From contig JAFKHH010000011.1 of assembly GCA_017306865.1 (NCBI GenBank), positions 1,116,001 through 1,180,000 of the forward strand: a stretch of 64,000 bases of DNA, given 5' to 3'. The translations under genes and the position numbers were made by a program. Origin of the DNA: Filimonas sp. GTDB lineage: Bacteria; Bacteroidota; Bacteroidia; Chitinophagales; Chitinophagaceae. Shown here piece by piece: positions 18,962 through 37,297 of the stretch. The notes beneath the pieces are model-generated. The model did not search any database. It was not told the DNA's origin and saw nothing but the letters and a program-made list of their open reading frames with translations. How positions within the stretch are numbered: the first letter of the stretch is position 1; the number at the start of each line of letters is the position of its first letter.

Positions 18962-19009
18962 AAGACAATGCGGTGTTGTCTGACTAAGTTTAGTTGCTTA
19001 TCCAAGTGT

Positions 19010-19230
19010 AAGCGTTCATTTGTCTACCGACGGTGTCACTTTTTGTCTTGATACAAAAAGTAACCAAAAAGATCAAGGCTGCAGAAAAGCAGGCTAAAAA
19101 TTGTCCTGCCCGCCGAAATCCATTGAACTCGCCGCTAACAGCATGAGTAAGTAAGTTACGCCTGGCTCAAACAGCAATGGATTTTTACGGCGTTCATGCC
19201 AATTTTCTTAACGCAGCTTTTCTGAGGCCG
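19010..19230 (+). repeat. 221-bp dispersed repeat R1, copy 2
   Basis: Same length, order and orientation as the copies at 17052 and 29976, beginning AAGCGTTCATTTGTCTACC and ending CTGAGGCCG. It occupies most of the gap 18962-19380. Its scattered differences from the other copies are spread over both arms. Confidence 0.88.
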
Positions 19231-19326
19231 CACGTTTCTTTTCAAAGATTAGAAAAGAAAATTCCCTGATTTATTGTAGCAGGATAATAGATGCTACAAT
19301 AAATACTGGCTTATACATTCCCCTTT

Positions 19327-26404: not shown

Positions 26405-27694
26405 TCATTCCAACATTCGTTGCACTGCTTTGAAATCAAAATTTTTAGTAAAGTTCTCCACCAGTCTTTGTCCTGCCGGTACTTTCACATAGCGAAACGA
26501 AAGCTCTATCAATTGTGGTTTCGCAGGTGCTGTAGTAGTGCTTTTGAAGTAAGCAGGATTGTATTTGTATAACACATCACCGTTGCGGTTGTCCCAAAAG
26601 CCGCTGAAGGTGAAACTACCTGTTTTTATACCATCTGCTTCACTGTCTGCTACGCCTTGCCCGTTATCGCTCCAGCCCAGGTTTTTATCATATATCCAAT
26701 TGGTTACAGGTTTAGGACATACGATAGCCGGTTGTGAAAGCCATTCCTCTTTATTTTCTTTTAGCGCTGCATTTACCAATGCCTTTTTTGTTTCATATTT
26801 TGATTGGTAGTTATCATACTTTATTGTATGATTGTTATAGGCCTTTTTATAGTTGGCAATCAATTGTTCATTGCCCTTGGCACTTTTAAGATTGTTTTGG
26901 TATTCCCGTTCTATGTCGTCTACATTTTTTTTGAATAGAACAAGTTCCCTGTCGTAAAACTCCAGGAGTGTCTGCAAGTATTCTTTTCGCGTAACAGGTA
27001 CAAATAGTGGCGTACCTGCTTTGGTAATATACCAATGACGGGTAATGTAAGCATTACGGCTACCTTGCTTTACCTTATCATCTGCAACGTCCTGGTAAAA
27101 GCCGATGCCACCATTCATGGCGTCTAATAATCTTTTGTCCTTAAACCGCAGGAAATCATGCAGCGCTATGTAGCGGTCATCATACTGGTTAGGCGTTGCA
27201 TAATAAGCATTGTTGTCAAGGTTGTTGAAGGCAGGAGAGAGGTCCTTGAAACGGTTCACGTATGCGCGAAACACATTCGCATATTCACTATTTACCAATG
27301 TTTTGTTTTTCACGCAGATGTATTCATATACACCCAGGTTCAGGCTATAGGCAGCTATTGCATATTTGCTGCTAATGTACCCGGTGGCATCCCCGGAAAA
27401 AGAACTTTTGAGTACGGCACCTGTGAGCGTAAAATTTTTTCGACTATCCTTTTCTATGCTTTCTATTTGAGTAAGTACATTATTTGCCGTGGTTTTATTT
27501 GCGGCTGTTTTTAATTCATTCAGCCACGAAGCTCTTGCAGCAGGCCATTCATAGTGAGCCGCATCTGTGTATTTACCGGGCAATGCATCTAGCTCTTCGG
27601 TTGTTTTGCAGTCCTGTGCTTCTATACGTTGTATGCATGTTAGTAAGCAAAAGAAAGCAACGGCTGTTTTTAATTGAGATGTTGTATGCTTCAT
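26405..27694 (-). CDS. Secreted protein of unknown function, family E (paralogue of 32476-33780)
   Basis: Start at 27694 (M-K-H-T-T-S-Q-L-K...) gives a signal peptide ending R-I-E-A-Q and 429 residues; the earlier in-frame ATG would overlap the upstream gene. It shares ordered blocks with the protein at 32476-33780: L-P-G-K-Y, R-K-N-F-T-L-T-G, T-K-A-G-T-P-L-F-V-P-V-T-R-K-E-Y, N-P-A-Y-F-K and a C-terminal N-F-D-F-K-A-V-Q-R-M-L-E. A long helical, coiled-coil-like stretch lies at about 245-325. I know no domain name for it. It is 16 bases downstream of the TPR gene and in its operon, under dyad promoter 3. Confidence 0.85.
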   Translation of the reverse strand: MKHTTSQLKTAVAFFCLLTCIQRIEAQDCKTTEELDALPGKYTDAAHYEWPAARASWLNELKTAANKTTANNVLTQIESIEKDSRKNFTLTGAVLKSSFSGDATGYISSKYAIAAYSLNLGVYEYICVKNKTLVNSEYANVFRAYVNRFKDLSPAFNNLDNNAYYATPNQYDDRYIALHDFLRFKDKRLLDAMNGGIGFYQDVADDKVKQGSRNAYITRHWYITKAGTPLFVPVTRKEYLQTLLEFYDRELVLFKKNVDDIEREYQNNLKSAKGNEQLIANYKKAYNNHTIKYDNYQSKYETKKALVNAALKENKEEWLSQPAIVCPKPVTNWIYDKNLGWSDNGQGVADSEADGIKTGSFTFSGFWDNRNGDVLYKYNPAYFKSTTTAPAKPQLIELSFRYVKVPAGQRLVENFTKNFDFKAVQRMLE

Positions 27695-27710
27695 TTGGAA
27701 CCAGGTTAAT

Positions 27711-29840
27711 TTATTTGCCAAATCCATTTATTCCACCAGACATATTCCCGGAGATCAAACTCATCCTGCCCGAAACGGTTACGCTTACACCTTTGTCGCT
27801 AAGGCCCGCATCACCCATGCCAGGTTGTTCTTTTCCTGTTGTATTGGCTTCGGCAATATGTTGGTCGAAGGTTTGTATAATGTTTGATGTAGCGCTTACT
27901 GTAGCCTCGCCTGTTACATACACGTCCTCTACGCCACGGTTGGTAAACTCTATACCCATTCCCGCTTTTACAGAAGCGCCTATCTGCATTGGCCCTTTAT
28001 CTATCGAGACGCTTTTGTCTATCAGCGTAGCTTCTAAAGTGCCTTTCTTAAAACGGTCTTTGCCTGTGTTGTCGGACTTAAAATTGAAATTTCCACTCAG
28101 TTTGCCTGCGTCAAATTCCACGCGCATGTTGCCACACTCCACTATTTGTTTGTACACACCAAAGTCAAGCACTGATACGAAAGTGCAATGCATATCGTCA
28201 AAGTCAGCTAGCTTATAGCGGGAGCCTTTGCTAGCAGGCGTTGTACAGTTACCGTATTTATTCGTCGCAAGATATCGCCCGCTACCCAATGCAGACAGCC
28301 ATTCTTTTTTGGCAGCCAGCTTTACAGCTTCAAACGCAGTGTTGTCCATTGTAAATTGTTTCCAATACAACTCTTCCGTAATCTTTAGGTACAACTGGTG
28401 CAGGTATTTTTTATACGCTTCTTCCAATGGCTTGTTGTAATTCGCATACACCCACTCACTGTATTTCTGTTGCACTTTGCAATTATCAAAACCAATGTTT
28501 TCTCCTTTCTTAGCCAGCTCAGTTTCTTTGTCGGCGATTTGGCTGTTTTGCTTTTCTAAACTTTTTCTTTGCGCTTCATCTTTGGACAGGAAATCTTTTA
28601 TGAGTGTTTCAAATTCTGTTCTTGTTTTGGTCAACCTGTAAGTAGCACCGCCGTCTTTATTCATTTCTTCCAGGTTTTTTTCTGCTACTTTATAATAGAT
28701 GTTTTCTTCCTGTGGCGCATTTGCAGACATAGCATTTATGCCTTTCTGATACTGGCTGTATGCCTGTTGCGCCTTTTGCGCGCCGGCTTGCTGATAAGGT
28801 ATCAACTCTTTTGCAATCGACATTGTTTTTTCATTCACCTGTTTTTGAAACGCATCCCAATCTGCACTTAACCTTATTTCTTCTTCGTAAGATGTGGGTA
28901 CATCCGGGCGTACAAATTTTCTCAGCCCTAGCGGATCTGGATCTGGACGGAATGGAATACGCATGTCGCTTCCCTTTATTTTGTAGCCCAGCTTGCGCAG
29001 CTTATTAAGCTTGTCGAGGGAATAACTGTATTTAATTGAGTTTTTCAATTTCTCAATTGCTTTGGTTGTATTGCCTTTACTTTCCTGTATCAGGCATTGC
29101 GTATAGTTTGCCTGCGGATGACAGGCGAAAGCGCGTACTGTTTTTTCTAAATACACATCTGCTTTATCTGTTTCACCAAGATAAAACCATGCCTGCCCCA
29201 GGTTGTTCAAAATAGTTGTGTTGTCGGGATATTGCTTGTTCAGGTATTCCAGTAACGGAATAGCGCGGTGCGGTGCACCACCCATGCTCAACATTGCTGC
29301 AAAATTGCTTAACAGGTCTGCGTCTGATACACTTTCAGCGCAAGACCGCCCGGTCATATATACGGCAATTTCCAGGTTGCCATTTACCCAGTAGCCCAAT
29401 GCGGCATTGCCAATAGCAGTGGCATTATATTTATTGGATTTGAAAGATGTATAGACTTGCTGCACAAATAATTTTGTATCAGCGCTGATACTTTTTTCTA
29501 TATACTCGTTCAGTGTTTTGATATAAGCAGGCAGGGTAGCTGCGGTAAGTGTTACTTTAGGGATAGCTTCAATAAAAGCGGCATTTTTAGTTGGGACGCC
29601 ATCACCGCCAACTGCCATTCCTATTTGAACGTCTGATACTCCGGCAGGCATAGCGGGTACTTTTGCAGAGAAGCCCATTTGCTCCATCATTTTGCGTTGC
29701 TCAGGCGTAAGCTTGTCTAAAGCGTCCTGCGCTTCTTTTTGCTTTTGCTGTATTTCTTTTTGTGTTGTGGGATTTTTGCTTTGTGTATAAGCAGTTATAC
29801 TACCTATAAGAAGACTGAAGAGCAGGAGATGTTTTTTCAT
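27711..29840 (-). CDS. Secreted TPR-containing protein of unknown function
   Basis: 709 residues with signal peptide M-K-K-H-L-L-L-F-S-L...Y-T-Q. A charged region (K-E-I-Q-Q-K-Q-K-E-A-Q-D-A-L) and E-Q-R-K-M-M-E-Q-M-G-F open the mature protein. Residues about 130-270 form TPR repeats (N-N-L-G-Q-A-W-F-Y-L-G-E-T-D-K-A). Residues 350-470 are coiled coil, and the C-terminal 200 residues are beta-rich with several cysteines. No catalytic motif is visible. The gene is transcribed from a promoter at 30246-30294, leaving a roughly 400-base leader that contains a complete copy of repeat R1. Confidence 0.87.
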   Translation of the reverse strand: MKKHLLLFSLLIGSITAYTQSKNPTTQKEIQQKQKEAQDALDKLTPEQRKMMEQMGFSAKVPAMPAGVSDVQIGMAVGGDGVPTKNAAFIEAIPKVTLTAATLPAYIKTLNEYIEKSISADTKLFVQQVYTSFKSNKYNATAIGNAALGYWVNGNLEIAVYMTGRSCAESVSDADLLSNFAAMLSMGGAPHRAIPLLEYLNKQYPDNTTILNNLGQAWFYLGETDKADVYLEKTVRAFACHPQANYTQCLIQESKGNTTKAIEKLKNSIKYSYSLDKLNKLRKLGYKIKGSDMRIPFRPDPDPLGLRKFVRPDVPTSYEEEIRLSADWDAFQKQVNEKTMSIAKELIPYQQAGAQKAQQAYSQYQKGINAMSANAPQEENIYYKVAEKNLEEMNKDGGATYRLTKTRTEFETLIKDFLSKDEAQRKSLEKQNSQIADKETELAKKGENIGFDNCKVQQKYSEWVYANYNKPLEEAYKKYLHQLYLKITEELYWKQFTMDNTAFEAVKLAAKKEWLSALGSGRYLATNKYGNCTTPASKGSRYKLADFDDMHCTFVSVLDFGVYKQIVECGNMRVEFDAGKLSGNFNFKSDNTGKDRFKKGTLEATLIDKSVSIDKGPMQIGASVKAGMGIEFTNRGVEDVYVTGEATVSATSNIIQTFDQHIAEANTTGKEQPGMGDAGLSDKGVSVTVSGRMSLISGNMSGGINGFGK

Positions 29841-29975
29841 TTTTCAGATAGTTGGTTCTCTTGAATAACTATAACCTATTTTGTGTTGTATGCTGTAGCG
29901 TTGCTGCTTTGCTAAAGCATGCTCTTTGTAAATTGTCGTTGTTGTTCTGCTAGATTTAGGGATCTGTTTAATTGC

Positions 29976-30196
29976 AAGCGTTCATTTGTCTACCGACGGT
30001 GTTACTTTTTGTCTTGATACAAAAAGTAACCAAAAAGATCAAGGCTGCAGAAAAGCAGGCTAAAAATTGTCCTGACCGCCGAAATCCATTGAACTCGCCG
30101 CTTACAGCATGAGTAGGTAAGTTTTGCCTGGCTCAAACAGCAATGGATTTTTCCGGCGTTCATGTCAATTTTCTTAACGCAGCTTTTCTGAGGCCG
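29976..30196 (+). repeat. 221-bp dispersed repeat R1, copy 3, inside an operon leader
   Basis: Same 221-base length as the other two copies. It lies between the predicted promoter (30246-30294, minus strand) and the start codon at 29840, so it should be transcribed in antisense orientation relative to the repeat as written. It fills half of the gene-free stretch 29841-30294. Confidence 0.88.
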
Positions 30197-30245
30197 AACG
30201 TTTTGTCAAATAACTCAGTCGTACAATAAGGATAAATTATCAGTA

Positions 30246-30294
30246 TAAAAGTATTTACTACAGTCAGTACGGTCAATCGTTAAAAAGAATGATT
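30246..30294 (-). promoter_or_regulatory. Dyad promoter 3 of the envelope regulon
   Basis: Dyad AATCGT-TAAAAAGA-ATGATT at 30275-30294 overlaps the minus-strand -33 TTG (30274-30276). After exactly 20 bases comes TACTTTTA (30246-30253, written as its complement on the plus strand). The same layout occurs at 32405-32453 and 34567-34615. It would drive the TPR gene and the family E gene at 26405. Confidence 0.75.
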
Positions 30295-31944
30295 TTAATT
30301 AAAGATGCCTGCGGGAAGAATAGCGGACTTTCCTGGTGCGGTTTCATAATAATAAGCCGTGCTGCCATTGCCTTCCCGCTCTGTGTGGTCATTGTATTGT
30401 ACTACGAGTGCATTGACCTTATTGCCTGTCATATACTCCACCTTGAATGTGTATGTAACGGGTTCTAATTTTCTTTTACTTGTTTTTATACGTTTGTCCC
30501 ATTGTTCTTTTATCTTCCCGATCTGCACGTCGCTCATGGCGGCCAGCTTTATAGGGCCGCCGGAAACACTCCATTCCTCGTTTGCACCATTAACGGGTGT
30601 AATGGTGAGTTGATTGCCATTGATGGCGTAAGTGCCTGTTTCGTGTTGAAGTAAATTAGGATCTGTATAGGCTGATGCGCCTACATATATAAACAGGTAA
30701 GTGCCGTCCAGGTTAAACTTGTATTGATAAGTAAAATAACCGCCTGTGTAGTACCCGTTCATTGTGCCGCCAACAAATTTTTCGGTGGTTCTTCCTTCCC
30801 ATATTTTTCCTGCAAGTGCAGAGTTAACTGTATTGTGTGTGGCGGATAGATTTGTTTTCTGCGTGGGAATTGCTGCGGATGAGTTGTTCTCAACGCCCAA
30901 TGCAAAACCGGGTGGGTTATCTATCAGCGATTTGTCTAATGCACGTGGAGAATAACTCCAGGTATTTTCCTGGTTGTTACTGTTACTTGCACCATCGCGC
31001 GTTGTTGGCCTGGCATACTTAAGTAAAAGGGCTGTTTCCTTTGTGCCTGAATAATAATGAAATTCAAACGTGTAAGTGATCGTTTCCAGTTTTGGCGTCA
31101 TAGACTTCGTGAGTTTGCCCCACTCTTTATTGCTTGATGTTCTGCTCCATGATTGACTAATGCCTTGCCTGGGCGTAACGGTAAGCTGGTTGCCGTTTAC
31201 AGCGTATGTACCGGATTCGTAAACGAAGTATATATCCTTCATGTAAGCACTCCAGTTCTTGATGCGAAAAATATATGTGCCGTCTGCCTTAAACAAATAC
31301 TCTTTCCTGAAATACCCGGCTGTGTATTGCGGCATGTTATTTATATAACCTGATGTTTCAAGCATATTATAGGACCATAAACCTACAATGGAAGTGGTAT
31401 TGGCACTTGCAGAAGGACTGGCCTCTGTTGTGGTAGAAGAGGGGTTTGTTACAGCGGCTTGAGGAACATTGCTGGCATCTAAGTCCAGTGAGCCAAGCAA
31501 CGCCTGGTAATCTTTTAAGTAAGGCTGTGCAGTAGCATTGCATAAGACAGATACGCAAACAGCATTGTTGGAGTAGACAGTTAATATACAGGCTACGTTA
31601 GCTCCATTGTATTGCCATACACCGGAGCCGCTCATGACGGTCCAGCCTTCCGCGGATTGGGGCTGGGTTTTGTCTGGTGCTGAAATTGTTTTAGAACTGG
31701 CTATTAGTTCATTCCATTCCTTATCAAAGTCTGCCTGGATACTGCCGCTGCTGGTGCGGTGCTGGTAAATGGCTATTTGTGCCCAACTGCTGCCGTCAAT
31801 GCGGGAGTAAGCTGCATAGTCATTGCCTTGTTGTGATGTCCATCCGACAGGGGCGGTGTAAGTGACTATGTCGTAGGTTTGCTTTTGCGCATTCATATTG
31901 TTATAGAAAAGCAGTATTGTAATGAGGAGGATACAGTTTTTCAT
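30295..31944 (-). CDS. Secreted protein with two lipocalin-like modules
   Basis: Start at 31944 gives signal peptide M-K-N-C-I-L-L...M-N-A-Q and 549 residues; the frame extends 14 codons upstream. Residues 22-150 resemble a PsbP/MOG1-type domain (Y-T-A-P-V-G-W-T). A Ser/Thr/Ala-rich linker follows. Two homologous modules then appear at about 180-320 and 380-520, each with G-Y-F, F-x-x-D-G-T-Y-x-F, E-x-G-T-Y-A-x-N-G-N-Q-L-T and V/I-T-Y-T-F. These are hallmarks of lipocalin-like beta-barrel domains that bind small ligands. It lies 74 bases downstream of the DUF4870-like gene and shares its promoter. Confidence 0.85.
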   Translation of the reverse strand: MKNCILLITILLFYNNMNAQKQTYDIVTYTAPVGWTSQQGNDYAAYSRIDGSSWAQIAIYQHRTSSGSIQADFDKEWNELIASSKTISAPDKTQPQSAEGWTVMSGSGVWQYNGANVACILTVYSNNAVCVSVLCNATAQPYLKDYQALLGSLDLDASNVPQAAVTNPSSTTTEASPSASANTTSIVGLWSYNMLETSGYINNMPQYTAGYFRKEYLFKADGTYIFRIKNWSAYMKDIYFVYESGTYAVNGNQLTVTPRQGISQSWSRTSSNKEWGKLTKSMTPKLETITYTFEFHYYSGTKETALLLKYARPTTRDGASNSNNQENTWSYSPRALDKSLIDNPPGFALGVENNSSAAIPTQKTNLSATHNTVNSALAGKIWEGRTTEKFVGGTMNGYYTGGYFTYQYKFNLDGTYLFIYVGASAYTDPNLLQHETGTYAINGNQLTITPVNGANEEWSVSGGPIKLAAMSDVQIGKIKEQWDKRIKTSKRKLEPVTYTFKVEYMTGNKVNALVVQYNDHTEREGNGSTAYYYETAPGKSAILPAGIFN

Positions 31945-32018
31945 AATGACTGATTTTGTTTTATTACGAAGAGAGCCACATTGCAAAACGCAATACAGGT
32001 AGTGTAGCGTTACCGGTA

Positions 32019-32384
32019 TTATCCCACGCTATGAAACCATTGCTGTGCTTTATCGCCAATAACCGGAACTGTTTTTTCCTGCCCGTTTAGCGCAGCTATA
32101 AAACCGATAAGCCACAGTACAAAGAGGCCGATATAAACAGGGATGAATAACATATTGATCAGCCACCCGATATATGGTATAAATGCGAAGAACATTTGTA
32201 CTATCCAGAGCGCAAGAGCTATCACGAACAGCGCTATACTTTGCCGGAGGTGAAACGTGCCGAGTACGGTTTTATTATTGTTGTGTTGCATTAGTGCTAC
32301 TACCCACCCGATAATGGTGAGATAACTGATAATGGCAACTGTTTTGCCATCGTCTGTAACTGCTGGTGTTTGTTGTTCTGCCAT
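32019..32384 (-). CDS. DUF4870-like small membrane protein
   Basis: Start at 32384 (M-A-E-Q-Q-T-P-A) yields 121 residues. D-G-K-T-V-A-I-I-S-Y-L-T-I-I-G-W is followed by F-H-L-R-Q-S-I-A-L-F and two further hydrophobic segments, the order seen in DUF4870 proteins. It is probably a three-pass inner-membrane protein. Function unknown. The gene is first of a two-gene operon with the lipocalin-like gene, and its upstream region contains dyad promoter 2. Confidence 0.85.
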   Translation of the reverse strand: MAEQQTPAVTDDGKTVAIISYLTIIGWVVALMQHNNNKTVLGTFHLRQSIALFVIALALWIVQMFFAFIPYIGWLINMLFIPVYIGLFVLWLIGFIAALNGQEKTVPVIGDKAQQWFHSVG

Positions 32385-32404
32385 GGTGTGTTTACTTTGT
32401 GGAG

Positions 32405-32453
32405 TAAAAATAGATGCAGGCGCAGGGTTGTACAATCATTAAAAAAGATGGTT
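32405..32453 (-). promoter_or_regulatory. Dyad promoter 2 of the envelope regulon
   Basis: Dyad AATCAT-TAAAAAAG-ATGGTT at 32434-32453. The minus-strand TTG lies at 32433-32435, then exactly 20 bases, then TATTTTTA (minus strand, 32405-32412). The start codon at 32384 lies 20 bases beyond the -7 element. Spacing from dyad to start codon matches dyad promoter 1 within about one base. Confidence 0.78.
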
Positions 32454-32475
32454 TTTTGCCTAAATAAGATGTCTT

Positions 32476-33780
32476 CTACTCAAGCATTTTACGTAGTGCA
32501 TTGAAGTCGTAATTCTTCAAAAAGTTTGTAAAGAGCCTTTCTGAAAACCCTCTGTCTTCAGCTATTTCGTAGCGGAACTGTATTTCAAAAAGGATAGGTT
32601 TGAACGGTTGGTTACTGTTTGTTTTAAAGTATTCAGGATTGCAGATATACAAGGCTACCTTTTTTTCATCTTCTTCGTCATAAAATTTTCCAATATCAGC
32701 CAGTCTCTGATACGCATCGTAGCTGTAGGAATTTTTATCCACTACTGCATTCCTTTGTAGCCAGTCGTTTTTTTGCGTAGCCAGCAGTTGTTCTACTTTT
32801 GCTTTTCTCTTTTCGCAAAAACCGGGATAGGCAGCTTTATCTGCTTCCAGCACAGCCATTCTTTTCTTTGCATACTCATTGGTGTTGCCTGCATTGCTTT
32901 TTATTTGTGCTTCGAGGCTGGCATAAAAATTTACTTTCTCTATTTCAAAATATTCCAGCAGGTCTTCCAGGTATTGCTTCCGGGTAACGGGTATCAGCAG
33001 TGGTACACCAGGCTTTGTTAGCATGTAATGACGGTCGATCCATTTATATCCTTTGGGGTTGGGCTTGTCATATTGCGAACCAGACATCCAGTTCTCCACA
33101 TAGCCTTCGCCATTAATGATCTTTAAAAAATCTGTATGCTTGTTTTTGTAATCGCTAGACCTGTTGGTTAAAACATTTGACTCTGATATATACAGGGAAA
33201 TATGGCTTGGATGTGCCGTACGGTCTTTGTCATAGTCTGGCCCCACCTTCGCATTGATCGGAATTTCGTAGCGGACAGACTTGTTCTGATCGGTGAGATA
33301 AAATTCACCGGTTGCGCCGGGTAAAACTGCAGGTACTGCTACAGCCGGATTAACATCTATCCGTAGTACAGTCCTGTATTCATCCACTGTTTTTACAACA
33401 TGCTCGGTAATATGACAAACATTTTGGTACGCTGCTAACTGGTATCCATATCCTGCATGAAAATAGCCGGCGGAGGTATTTTTGACAAGTGTACTGAAAC
33501 TGACCCGTGCCACACACCCGGTGAGTTGAAAATTGCTACGGCTGGCTTCTTCCGTCTTCTCCAGTGCGATCAATTGCTTAGTCATTGTTGCTTTATCCTG
33601 TGCGGAATAGTTGCCGAGGTTAGGCGGGTACTTTGGTTGTGTATGATCGTAGTATTTTCCCGGCAATTGGTCCGCGCTTCCATTGCAGGGCATGGGTGAT
33701 GTGTTGTCGCTTGCTTTTTGTTGTGCATGGCTATTGCAATAGCATAACAGCCATACAAAAATGATCATACCATTTTTCAT
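32476..33780 (-). CDS. Secreted protein of unknown function, family E (paralogue of 26405-27694)
   Basis: Start at 33780 gives signal peptide M-K-N-G-M-I-I-F...S-H-A-Q and 434 residues. It shares L-P-G-K-Y-Y-D, S-R-S-N-F-Q-L-T-G, L-T-K-P-G-V-P-L-L-I-P-V-T-R-K-Q-Y, a central helical region and C-terminal N-Y-D-F-N-A-L-R-K-M-L-E with the protein at 26405-27694. Identity is clear in blocks but low overall, so the duplication is old. No known domain. It follows the Hcp-like gene by 149 bases on the same strand and is probably in its operon, although a weak promoter in the gap cannot be excluded. Confidence 0.85.
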   Translation of the reverse strand: MKNGMIIFVWLLCYCNSHAQQKASDNTSPMPCNGSADQLPGKYYDHTQPKYPPNLGNYSAQDKATMTKQLIALEKTEEASRSNFQLTGCVARVSFSTLVKNTSAGYFHAGYGYQLAAYQNVCHITEHVVKTVDEYRTVLRIDVNPAVAVPAVLPGATGEFYLTDQNKSVRYEIPINAKVGPDYDKDRTAHPSHISLYISESNVLTNRSSDYKNKHTDFLKIINGEGYVENWMSGSQYDKPNPKGYKWIDRHYMLTKPGVPLLIPVTRKQYLEDLLEYFEIEKVNFYASLEAQIKSNAGNTNEYAKKRMAVLEADKAAYPGFCEKRKAKVEQLLATQKNDWLQRNAVVDKNSYSYDAYQRLADIGKFYDEEDEKKVALYICNPEYFKTNSNQPFKPILFEIQFRYEIAEDRGFSERLFTNFLKNYDFNALRKMLE

Positions 33781-33929
33781 GTATAAAATGAGTTTATTTT
33801 GAATACAAGGCCAGAAGCGGGATGGAAGCATTCCTTTAATCGCTCTATGGTTTAGTGGTCAAGCTGCCAGAGCTATTGCAAGAGCGGGCTTATAAAAAGC
33901 CATTCTTTTGTATTGTTATAGGCGATGCT

Positions 33930-34547
33930 TTAAAAGTTATTCCACGCTGTGCCTGCAACGGTATCCCAACCTGATTTATTAATAGAATTTAGTTTTCCTG
34001 TTCTGGCATCTATGTTGAAATAGATCCAGCCAATGCGGCTTGCTTTCAGTGCTATTTTGCTTGTGCCACTTGCTACGTTGTCTGTACAGCTTTCTACTCT
34101 TACGTTTTCCAGTATTATTTGATTGCTTAATGTTGGTACGCTATTGTTTACCCTGTTTGTTACAGAAATCTCAATTTTTGAAATAGGAAATGCCTGTAGT
34201 GATTGCTGTGTGATCGTTCTTTCCGGCATAGCGGAAGAGGAGGTGTTTGCAGATTTCAGGCTTGTTGCGGTAGGTTTTGCCACTAGTGTAACAGGCTGCG
34301 CAGTATTGATCATGCCGCGAAAGGTAGCTATATAGATGTTTGTCGGTACTTCTATTTCTATTGTGGCTGTATTGTCAGTGCCACCGGTATAGTTGGTTAT
34401 AATAAGCTGGTCTTCATATCCTTTCATAGTAGAGGTGCCTTTGATCCGGGAGCCGTCGCTTTTAGTGACTTTGCCATAGATCGTTTTAGTTTGGGCAGCT
34501 ATACCTGTAACTGCGAGCAGTGCTATCAGTGCAAAAAATGATTTCAT
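33930..34547 (-). CDS. Secreted Hcp-like protein
   Basis: Start at 34547 gives signal peptide M-K-S-F-F-A-L-I-A-L...I-A-A-Q and 205 residues. The mature part runs K-S-D-G-S-R-I-K-G-T-S (like the opening of Hcp tube proteins), F-P-I-S-K-I-E-I-S-V, then I-I-L-E-N-V-R-V-E-S-C and K-I-A-L-K-A-S-R-I-G-W-I-Y-F. The last two resemble the closing strands L-E-N-V-K-V and K-V-A-L-x-x-x-K-I-x-W-x-Y of Hcp. Hcp is normally cytoplasmic and lacks a signal peptide, and no other type VI gene is here. So this is at most an Hcp-fold protein exported by Sec. It is first gene downstream of dyad promoter 1. Confidence 0.82.
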   Translation of the reverse strand: MKSFFALIALLAVTGIAAQTKTIYGKVTKSDGSRIKGTSTMKGYEDQLIITNYTGGTDNTATIEIEVPTNIYIATFRGMINTAQPVTLVAKPTATSLKSANTSSSAMPERTITQQSLQAFPISKIEISVTNRVNNSVPTLSNQIILENVRVESCTDNVASGTSKIALKASRIGWIYFNIDARTGKLNSINKSGWDTVAGTAWNNF

Positions 34548-34566
34548 GGTTATATAATTTGTGATA

Positions 34567-34615
34567 TAAAAGTAGCGGCAGGGGAAGGCGGCTACAATCA
34601 TTAAAAAGGATGATT
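34567..34615 (-). promoter_or_regulatory. Dyad promoter 1 of the envelope regulon
   Basis: Perfect dyad AATCAT-TAAAAAGG-ATGATT at 34596-34615. Minus-strand TTG at 34595-34597, exactly 20 bases, then TACTTTTA (minus strand, 34567-34574), 19 bases before the start codon at 34547. It is the best-preserved of the three sites. Confidence 0.8.
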
Positions 34616-34668
34616 TTTTGAGAATGACAGAGACTGTTTAATGCAGTGGGAGGGCGGTTTGTACAAAA

Positions 34669-34688
34669 AATCATTAAAAAAGAGGATG
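34669..34688. promoter_or_regulatory. Degenerate fourth dyad upstream of the sensor kinase
   Basis: AATCAT-TAAAAAAG-AGGATG: one arm and the spacer match the three dyad promoters, the other arm does not. It lies 57 bases before the sensor-kinase start and may be a weak autoregulatory site or a decayed copy. No -7 element at 20-base spacing follows. Confidence 0.4.
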
Positions 34689-34745
34689 GTGAATTAACTG
34701 TTGCCAGCCGTTATTTGCTGTGTCAGAAAATATGTAACTTAAAGG

Positions 34746-36683
34746 ATGCTAAAACTACTACCCATACCTTTTATTTTTCTTTTGTGTTTTACCGGCCATG
34801 CACAAGCTTTAAATAAGGATAGCCTGCTCCATGCATTGCAAACTGCAAAAGAAGATACCGCCAAGGTCAGGCTGCTGCTGAACGTAGAGAAACTGTACTC
34901 TAACAAAAACTATGATAGTTTTTACTATTACTTAAACAAGGCGGAAGAATTGTCTAAAAAAATAAAGACGGATAAATTTGATTTCTTTATTAATGCAGGC
35001 TTTGTTGAATATTACTATTATAAGAATGATTATAAAAGTGCTACAAAATATGCGTTGCGTGGCAGGGATATTGCAGAAAAGCAAAATGATATGAAGTTGC
35101 TGGCTAAAAGCTACAACAATCTTGCCGCCGTATATAATCACTTTGGCCAGTATCGGTTCGCAATTGACTGCATACTGAAGTGCCTGGATATATCAGAAAA
35201 GACGAAGGATAGCATCAGCCTTCCTGTTCGTAACCTTACGGCTTCTAACACCTATTATAATTTAAAACAATTCAATAAGGCCATTGAGTACGCCCGTAAG
35301 GCGGTTGCGCTTGGGACAATGTTTGATAACGCTTTTGTTATAGGAATGGGTTTGAATAACATGTCGGCAAGCTACTCCTCTCTAAATATGCTTGACAGTT
35401 CTATCAGCATCAGCAAAAGACAACTCGCATTTGCGAAAAAGGAACAGGATATCGGTACTATTAATTATGCCTTGATCAATCTTTGCTATGATAATTTCAG
35501 GGATAACAATAAGAAGGAGTTGGAGTACTATTCAAAAGAATTGATTGCTTATTCCAAAATGATACCGGATAAGCAAGCCAATGCACAAGTGCGTACTGCA
35601 GTAGCATTGAACTTGATTGCACAACAAAAATATGATCTTGCGAAAAGCCAGTTGGATAGTGCTGTTCAAAGTGCAAAAGAAGATGAGAATGATGATGCTT
35701 TGGGAAACTTATACCAGACGTATTCAACGTTCTACTATTTGCAAGGCAATATAAAAGAGGGGGGAAGATATTTTTTTAAATACGACTCGCTTATCTCTGT
35801 CAAAGATATTAAGGAATTGAACTTTTATACAGAAGAGCTGGAAACCAAATATGAGACAGAGAAAAAGGAAACACAAATAAAACTACAGCAGGCGCAGCTT
35901 CGCCAGACAAATACGCTCAATTATGTTTTTATTGGCAGTACTATCGGGCTTCTTATCATCTCCCTACTTATTTACCGGAACTACAGGCATCGCCAAAAGC
36001 TACAGCAGGTAAAGATTGATGAATTGGAAACGGAGAAACAACTTACCGCTACAGAAGCGGTACTGAAGGGGGAGGACCAGGAGCGTACGCGCCTGGCAAA
36101 AGACCTGCATGACGGGTTAGGTGGTATGCTGAGTGGTATAAAATTTTCATTAAGCAATATGAAAGAAAATTTAGTGATGACGCCGGATAATGCACAGGCA
36201 TTTGAGCGCAGTATAGATATGCTGGATAGCTCTATTAAAGAGATGCGACGTGTGGCGCATAACATGATGCCGGAGGTATTGGTAAAATATGGATTGGATA
36301 CAGCGCTAAAAGATTTTTGCAATGATATAACCCTGAGTGGTGCAATACGTGCGAATTACCAGTCCATAGGGATGAATAACGCCTCTATTGAACAAACTAC
36401 GGCGATTGCTGTTTACCGGGTTGTACAGGAGCTGGTGAATAACGCACTAAAGCATGCAAACGCGCAAAATGTGCTGGTGCAGTTGCACCGGTCTGAACAG
36501 GAACGGTCGCTGGCTATTACTGTAGAAGATGATGGAAAAGGTTTTGATGTGGGAGGCTTAACCCAGTCTGGTGGCATGGGCTGGCAGAATATTCAAAACC
36601 GGGTAGATTTTTTGAAGGGCAAATTTGATATCCAGTCTTCGCAAGGCAAAGGTACTTCTGTAATGATAGAAATTAATATTTAA
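34746..36683 (+). CDS. TPR-sensor histidine kinase (HisKA_3/NarX type)
   Basis: 645 residues. A signal peptide (cleaved after G-H-A-Q, 20) leads to a periplasmic TPR array at about 30-360. A coiled coil and one membrane segment (391-411) follow, then HisKA_3 with phospho-acceptor His455 in K-D-L-H-D-G-L-G-G-M-L, and an HATPase domain with N-N-A-L-K-H-A and D-D-G-K-G-F-D. TPR-fused kinases of this form are frequent in Bacteroidota. The response regulator overlaps its stop by one base (TAATG), so translation is coupled. The gene is divergent from the envelope operons and is the best candidate for sensing their state. Confidence 0.94.
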   Translation: MLKLLPIPFIFLLCFTGHAQALNKDSLLHALQTAKEDTAKVRLLLNVEKLYSNKNYDSFYYYLNKAEELSKKIKTDKFDFFINAGFVEYYYYKNDYKSATKYALRGRDIAEKQNDMKLLAKSYNNLAAVYNHFGQYRFAIDCILKCLDISEKTKDSISLPVRNLTASNTYYNLKQFNKAIEYARKAVALGTMFDNAFVIGMGLNNMSASYSSLNMLDSSISISKRQLAFAKKEQDIGTINYALINLCYDNFRDNNKKELEYYSKELIAYSKMIPDKQANAQVRTAVALNLIAQQKYDLAKSQLDSAVQSAKEDENDDALGNLYQTYSTFYYLQGNIKEGGRYFFKYDSLISVKDIKELNFYTEELETKYETEKKETQIKLQQAQLRQTNTLNYVFIGSTIGLLIISLLIYRNYRHRQKLQQVKIDELETEKQLTATEAVLKGEDQERTRLAKDLHDGLGGMLSGIKFSLSNMKENLVMTPDNAQAFERSIDMLDSSIKEMRRVAHNMMPEVLVKYGLDTALKDFCNDITLSGAIRANYQSIGMNNASIEQTTAIAVYRVVQELVNNALKHANAQNVLVQLHRSEQERSLAITVEDDGKGFDVGGLTQSGGMGWQNIQNRVDFLKGKFDIQSSQGKGTSVMIEINI

Positions 36684-37297
36684 TGAAGGCAAGTGTTTTT
36701 ATAGTGGATGATCATTATATGGTAATAGAGGGCATCCGTTCTTTATTGCACAATGAAAAAAGTATTGAGTGGATGGGGCATGCAACAAATGCCGCATCCT
36801 GTCTTGGTTTTTTAAAGCAACAGCAACCGGATGTAATATTAATGGATGTGAACTTGCCGGATAAGAGTGGTACTGATCTATGTAAAGAAGTAAAACAGCT
36901 TTATCCTGCTATAATCGTGTTGGGGCTTAGTACATTTAACCAGCAAGCTATTATCCGCAACATGGTAGATAACGGTGCATCTGGCTATGTGCTAAAGAAT
37001 GCTACAAAGGAAGAACTGCTGGAAGCCATTAGCGTTGTAATGAAAGGGCATACTTTTTTCAGTATAGAAGCTGCACGCTCATTGAAAGAAACCCATCCGC
37101 AACAGCCAATGATCACCCGGCGCGAAAGAGAAGTGCTGCAGTTGATTGCTGAGGGGCTTACAAACGCAGAGATAGCAGAAAAACTATTTATCAGTATTCC
37201 AACCGTTAATACACACCGTAAAAGCCTGTTAGAAAAGTTTGAAGTAAAGAACACCGCTACGCTGATCAGCAAAGCGGTGCGGCTGGCGCTGGTATAA
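36683..37297 (+). CDS. NarL/FixJ family response regulator
   Basis: 204 residues. A receiver domain has D9/D10 and phospho-acceptor Asp55 (V-I-L-M-D-V-N-L-P). A LuxR-type helix-turn-helix follows at about 135-200 (R-E-R-E-V-L-Q-L-I-A-E-G-L-T-N-A-E-I-A, T-V-N-T-H-R-K-S-L-L). Its partner is the overlapping TPR kinase. As a dimeric LuxR-type DNA binder it could recognise the AATCAT-N8-ATGATT dyads upstream of the neighbouring operons; this is inference. Confidence 0.95.
   Translation: MKASVFIVDDHYMVIEGIRSLLHNEKSIEWMGHATNAASCLGFLKQQQPDVILMDVNLPDKSGTDLCKEVKQLYPAIIVLGLSTFNQQAIIRNMVDNGASGYVLKNATKEELLEAISVVMKGHTFFSIEAARSLKETHPQQPMITRREREVLQLIAEGLTNAEIAEKLFISIPTVNTHRKSLLEKFEVKNTATLISKAVRLALV

Follow-up and report, generated by a model that had tools for sequence, protein, structure and literature searches.

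What controls the operons of secreted and membrane proteins on the minus strand of a 64,000-nucleotide stretch of DNA from Filimonas sp. (referred to below as the window)? Three of these operons are preceded by promoters of one architecture, and a sensor histidine kinase with tetratricopeptide repeats (TPRs) and a NarL-type response regulator are encoded divergently beside them. An earlier examination (the sequence-only reading) had regarded the whole as a dedicated regulon of this two-component pair. Comparison with other genomes supports such a regulon, as indicated by the shared promoter architecture, the co-occurrence of motif and regulator, the fixed spacing before homologous effector families, and the covariation of the operator with the recognition helix of the regulator. 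It is very probable that the regulator binds the dyad of these promoters, centred near -43.5 and overlapping the -33 element, and activates both its own operon and a regulon of secreted proteins.

Site 1 (30246-30294), the promoter of the E709-E440 operon, reads AATCATTCTTTTTAACGATT-N21-TACTTTTA on the minus strand from 30294 to 30246, with the dyad at 30275-30294 and the box at 30246-30253. Site 2 (32405-32453), the promoter of the operon encoding a small membrane protein and E549, reads AACCATCTTTTTTAATGATT-N21-TATTTTTA from 32453 to 32405 of the same strand (dyad 32434-32453, box 32405-32412), and site 3 (34567-34615), the promoter of the E206-E434 operon, reads AATCATCCTTTTTAATGATT-N21-TACTTTTA from 34615 to 34567 (dyad 34596-34615, box 34567-34574). 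At all three sites the 3' end of the dyad forms a TTG, the final G of which follows the dyad letters, and exactly 20 bases separate the TTG from the box. A single composite, YCATYNTTTTTAAYGATTG-N20-TANTTTTR, matches each site exactly and has no match in 40 dinucleotide shuffles of the window, even when 4 mismatches are allowed, which bears out the common architecture described in the sequence-only reading. The dyad-to-ATG distances of sites 2 and 3 (49 and 48 nt) differ by a single base, as had also been noted.

When the whole 6.15-Mb genome was searched with up to 3 mismatches, the composite was found only at the three window sites and at C1:26449-26495 (L060 9950-9996), and the reversed control gave 1 match. 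The genome was searched by pattern only, so weaker members of the regulon have probably been missed. The additional site, with three mismatches and 1.1 Mb from the window, lies 22 nt ahead of a 305-aa protein of family F6, members of which stand first behind the motif in other genomes, and it would fit an unlinked target of the regulon. The dyad formula AATCAT-N8-ATGATT, which had been given as the core of the motif, describes the sites as read; taken alone, however, it is not above chance (49 found against 53 expected, with 3 mismatches). With 2 mismatches allowed, the genome contains 454 matches to the bare dyad and 324 to the reversed control. The bare dyad was rejected as a signal for lack of enrichment; the signal is carried by the central T-tract and the fixed spacing, not by the dyad alone.

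The geometry was compared among loci fetched by the regulator from Emticicia, Niabella, Pedobacter, Parafilimonas, Ferruginibacter and metagenome bins, with reading frames called by a simple script that gives approximate start codons. Where the regulator is at least 72% identical, nearly every locus has the dyad in the space that separates the divergent kinase-regulator genes from operons of secreted proteins; no full-length kinase frame was called in L097, L111 and L132. Of 50 occurrences of TAnnTTTR within 0-49 nt of dyads collected independently of the box, 47 are exactly 21 nt away, and the pooled non-redundant sites place 76 of 79 boxes at 21 nt (search range 20-22 nt). Most arm positions of the pooled sites approach 2 bits, and the spacer mostly carries less than 0.3 bits. 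The composite precedes homologous effector families at this fixed promoter geometry, and the E709 homologues in L106 and L092 stand directly behind such a promoter. The TTG at -33, present at all three window sites, is kept in only 47 of 79 homologous promoters, so it is common and not defining. Compared with TAnnTTTG, the effector promoters have A at -5 in 91% and the kinase promoters have T at -11, the remaining positions being as in the consensus; the boxes read TAYTTTTA(Y) and TTnnTTTG, respectively.

With the -7 box placed at -12 to -5, as in Flavobacterium psychrophilum (PMC9723704), the dyad would span -53 to -34, with its centre at -43.5, and overlap the -33 element. An operator at a fixed position that overlaps the upstream core element is the arrangement of class II activation. 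An optional TTG and boxes that depart from TAnnTTTG would be expected if the polymerase needs a bound protein at these promoters, and activation is favoured over repression. The regulator could instead repress by blocking the -33 region until a signal relieves the repression, since repressors bind in this region too; this is unlikely, as repression does not require the nearly invariant box spacing (47 of 50), and the off-consensus boxes and optional TTG suggest promoters in need of help.

The distribution of the motif follows that of the regulator. In a family-wide survey of 149 genomes, the composite (at most 2 mismatches) is matched in 18 genomes, with a single match for the reversed control, and a regulator of at least 70% identity is present in 17. 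The motif occurs in 16 of these 17 genomes and in 2 of the 132 others (Fisher's exact test, p ~2e-18, a value overstated by the shared ancestry of the genomes). The exceptions are G124, with a diverged dyad, G004, where the 68% regulator carries N176 and the dyads are slightly diverged, and G033, with a single two-mismatch match and no regulator listed. In a class-wide survey of 395 genomes, the motif is found only in the two genomes that have a regulator of at least 70% identity and once, with two mismatches, in G364, a match that is read as chance. Relatives carrying the genes without the dyad were looked for, and homologues of E434 are confined to motif-bearing genomes (15 of the 149, every one a motif genome).

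The operator also changes together with the regulator. Regulators that are 54-68% identical to the window protein and have the same gene arrangement mostly accompany altered dyads (AATCATGGAAAAAGGGGAG on the kinase side and ATCCC-N8-AGGAT-like on the effector side) with the 21-nt geometry unchanged. Consistent differences between the two groups of regulators are confined to six positions. Of these, 173 (P/A to T/S), 176 (N to D), 181 (S to N) and 184 (E to A) fall within the recognition helix or close to it. Regulators with N176 pair with ATCAT/ATGAT dyads and those with D176 with ATCCC/AGGAT-like dyads, and both types of regulator and dyad are held at separate loci in each of two genomes, G092 and G127. 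Positions 173, 176 and 177 are spaced as K194, K197 and N198 of Listeria DegU, which were modelled as base contacts (PMC9263151), and this register is kept in alignments to VraR, LiaR and EsrB. Consistent extra points come from L145, in which a 64% identical regulator with N176 accompanies an ATGAT-type dyad, and from L156, in which N176 occurs with N181 and an intermediate dyad. As a separate observation, G085 has two further regulators beside its main system (L153 and L156; 69% and 68%), with the helices PTVNAHRKS and ATVNTHRKN and intermediate dyads, which makes them useful for the study of shifts in operator specificity.

These two patterns bear on the proposal that another regulator, encoded elsewhere, binds the dyad and that the kinase-regulator pair is merely one of its targets. 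The kinase gene does itself carry a dyad, and binding by the NarL-type regulator is a prediction from sequence. However, the motif co-occurs with this regulator, which is adjacent in nearly all loci, and the dyad covaries with its recognition helix even where two systems share a genome, which makes a separate regulator quite improbable.

The dyad of the kinase gene had been described as a degenerate fourth copy before the divergent kinase/regulator pair. It is present there, but is better understood as part of a plus-strand promoter (34669-34717) with its own box: the dyad, AATCATTAAAAAAGAGGATG (34669-34688), has the reverse polarity, and the -7-like box GTTATTTG (34710-34717) lies 21 nt beyond it and 28 nt ahead of the kinase ATG. 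In most of the relatives' loci, a further dyad, inverted in polarity (AATCATTAAAAAAGATGAT), stands a short way ahead of the kinase start, often at ~60 bp, and kinase-side dyads are followed by TTnnTTTG at 21 nt in 26 cases and at 20 nt in 7. The dyad at 34669-34688 is thus best read as the putative operator of the kinase's own promoter. One near-palindrome appears to serve both directions with the same geometry, and the system is therefore predicted to control its own kinase-regulator operon. A kinase-type pattern search of the own genome does not match the window kinase promoter, because its dyad arm is degenerate.

The use of the dyad in both directions also bears on whether the composite is the site of an alternative sigma factor, with the dyad as part of an extended -33 element. 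The effector boxes, TAYTTTTAY rather than TAnnTTTG, would suit such a factor, yet the kinase promoters carry the same dyad in the opposite polarity with a different box (TTnnTTTG), the conserved part is ~22 bp upstream of -33, and the arms change with the regulator; the chance of a sigma factor site is slight. That the three promoters arose by recent duplication or from a repeat, and are alike by common descent and not by regulation, can be practically dismissed, even with the paralogues E434 and E440 and a dispersed repeat in the region, as identity outside the dyad and box is mostly at chance level (flanks 0.25-0.33; spacers 0.19-0.62, the highest, 62%, between sites 2 and 3), spacer length is constant while its sequence varies freely, which contradicts common descent, and several effector families with no relation to one another stand behind the motif in many genera.

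Direct activation by the regulator is the preferred explanation, and its steps may be as follows. The TPR sensor kinase would activate the divergently encoded NarL-type regulator, a dimer of which would bind directly to ATCATY-N6-RATGAT. The bound dimer would touch RNA polymerase and offset the poor core promoter, as in class II activation. Used in either orientation at 21 nt, the near-palindrome would drive the secreted-protein operons and also the kinase-regulator operon itself, which would amount to positive feedback.

Several points weigh against this explanation. Class II activation is deduced from position only, and the covariation of regulator and operator reflects mainly one evolutionary switch, because the tree puts the N176 regulators in nearly one clade. 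G124 holds a regulator with the same recognition helix but a diverged effector dyad, and L098 has the kinase-side dyad only. Additionally, the label of an envelope system, which would imply a surface or envelope role for the outputs, draws only on crudely judged signal peptides and on recurring families of unknown function.

The kinase (645 aa, 34746-36683, plus strand) has an N-terminal hydrophobic segment, TPRs, one central transmembrane segment, and the domains HisKA_3 (E 1.7e-10) and HATPase_c (E 9e-13); these two and TPR_12 (E 2.2e-10) are all above their cut-offs, and its domain content makes it a HisKA_3-type TPR sensor kinase. The regulator (204 aa, 36683-37297, plus strand) has the recognition helix PTVNTHRKS, which includes P173 and N176. 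Its Response_reg (E 1.6e-23) and GerE (E 3e-19) domains both exceed the cut-off, and this receiver and GerE helix-turn-helix architecture makes it a regulator of the NarL/FixJ type, for which comparison alone suggests phosphorylation-dependent DNA binding. None of the NCBIfam models listed for the kinase and regulator reaches its cut-off. In G131 (L059 15496-18147), the two proteins apparently form one open frame of 883 aa, which may be a natural fusion or a sequencing frameshift.

The outputs of the window are all encoded on the minus strand. Behind site 3 lie E206 (33930-34547; family F4) and E434 (32476-33780; family F3), both secreted proteins of unknown function; homologues of E206 stand behind the motif in other genomes. 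Behind site 2 lie a small membrane protein of 121 aa (32019-32384), with a sub-threshold TIC20 match (E 0.0037), and E549 (30295-31944; family F2), a secreted protein with lipocalin-like repeats. Behind site 1 lie E709 (27711-29840; family F1), a secreted TPR protein, and E440 (26405-27727; family F3), a paralogue of E434 with 31% identity and an uncertain start codon. The leader of site 1 is ~406 nt long (box 30246, ATG 29840), and a dispersed 237-bp repeat (29967-30203) between the promoter and the E709 start makes up this leader. The repeat has a second window copy at ~19004-19237 and ~40 listed genome copies of 92-96% identity, and it folds far better than its shuffles (z -6.6). An Rfam scan of 24-40 kb, the repeat included, detected no family; a miniature inverted-repeat transposable element (MITE)- or repetitive extragenic palindromic (REP)-like element is possible.

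Taken together, the operons behind the sites encode 155 proteins, which form 28 clusters; 117 of these proteins belong to six families. By a crude test, a signal peptide or lipobox is present in 136 of the 155 output proteins, compared with 557 of the 1042 longer frames of the same loci (output proteins included). Pfam detects TPR in F1 and Lipocalin_4 in half of F2, and gives nothing significant for F3 or for the F4 member in the window. The predicted structure of E434 is a fair model (pLDDT, the predicted local distance difference test, 82), and its comparison with the PDB gives no confident match (best Foldseek E 0.03, best VIA-align Z 5.7, mostly long-helix matches). The E709 model (pLDDT 67; pTM, the predicted template modelling score, 0.40) is too weak for a structure search. 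A perfect-looking site in G029 (L041 9876-19801) has no kinase-regulator pair in its vicinity; behind it come a 344-aa protein and a frame of 2893 aa or more.

With this regulon, several secreted protein families previously without context acquire a regulator, an operator and a promoter logic, and few operators of two-component regulators are known in Bacteroidota. Two helix positions matched to two operator bases, with paralogous systems in one genome, offer a natural, testable case of divergence without cross-talk. We give roughly even weight to the broader proposal that an undescribed Bacteroidota two-component system has diverged into two or more specificity classes (N176/ATCAT and D176/ATCCC-like), present together in single genomes and with no sites in common. 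Each class would drive itself and the secreted families of a new surface system through a bidirectional near-palindrome with a strictly kept 21-nt spacing. Searches of open-access papers gave no description of this regulon.

The Bacteroidota sigma-A promoter has TTTG at -33 and TAnnTTTG at -7 (PMC7366714, PMC9723704); the promoters studied here have a putative -7 box of that type, and 47 of the 79 carry TTG near -33, but they differ in boxes that read TAYTTTTA (effectors) or TTnnTTTG (kinase) and in a dyad predicted to cover -53 to -34. The nearest characterised analogue in logic is FimS/FimR of Porphyromonas gingivalis, also a Bacteroidota two-component system, the regulator of which directly binds the promoter region and activates genes for surface structures; a search of that paper by terms brought up no dyad, binding site or autoregulation (PMC1974823). 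The window kinase weakly matches the NCBIfam FimS model, but its 46.6 bits against a cut-off of 600 bits do not place it in the same system by this test, and the window targets are unrelated secreted families. DesR, VraR, LiaR, NarL and EsrB share the receiver and GerE architecture, DesR being the closest solved chain, and differ in operator, targets and helix residues (PTVN in the window compared with KTVK or KTVE). In class II activation of the LuxR type, a GerE-domain protein acts on the 20-bp lux box dyad near -42, which overlaps the upstream promoter element. The window system resembles it in the GerE protein, the 20-bp dyad and this overlap, whereas its regulator is a two-component receiver protein, its promoter is of the Bacteroidota -7/-33 kind, and its dyad is used in both directions. 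Together, the comparisons describe a real, conserved and apparently undescribed regulon, the parts of which (a TPR histidine kinase, a NarL-type regulator and a class II-like promoter) are each of a known kind.

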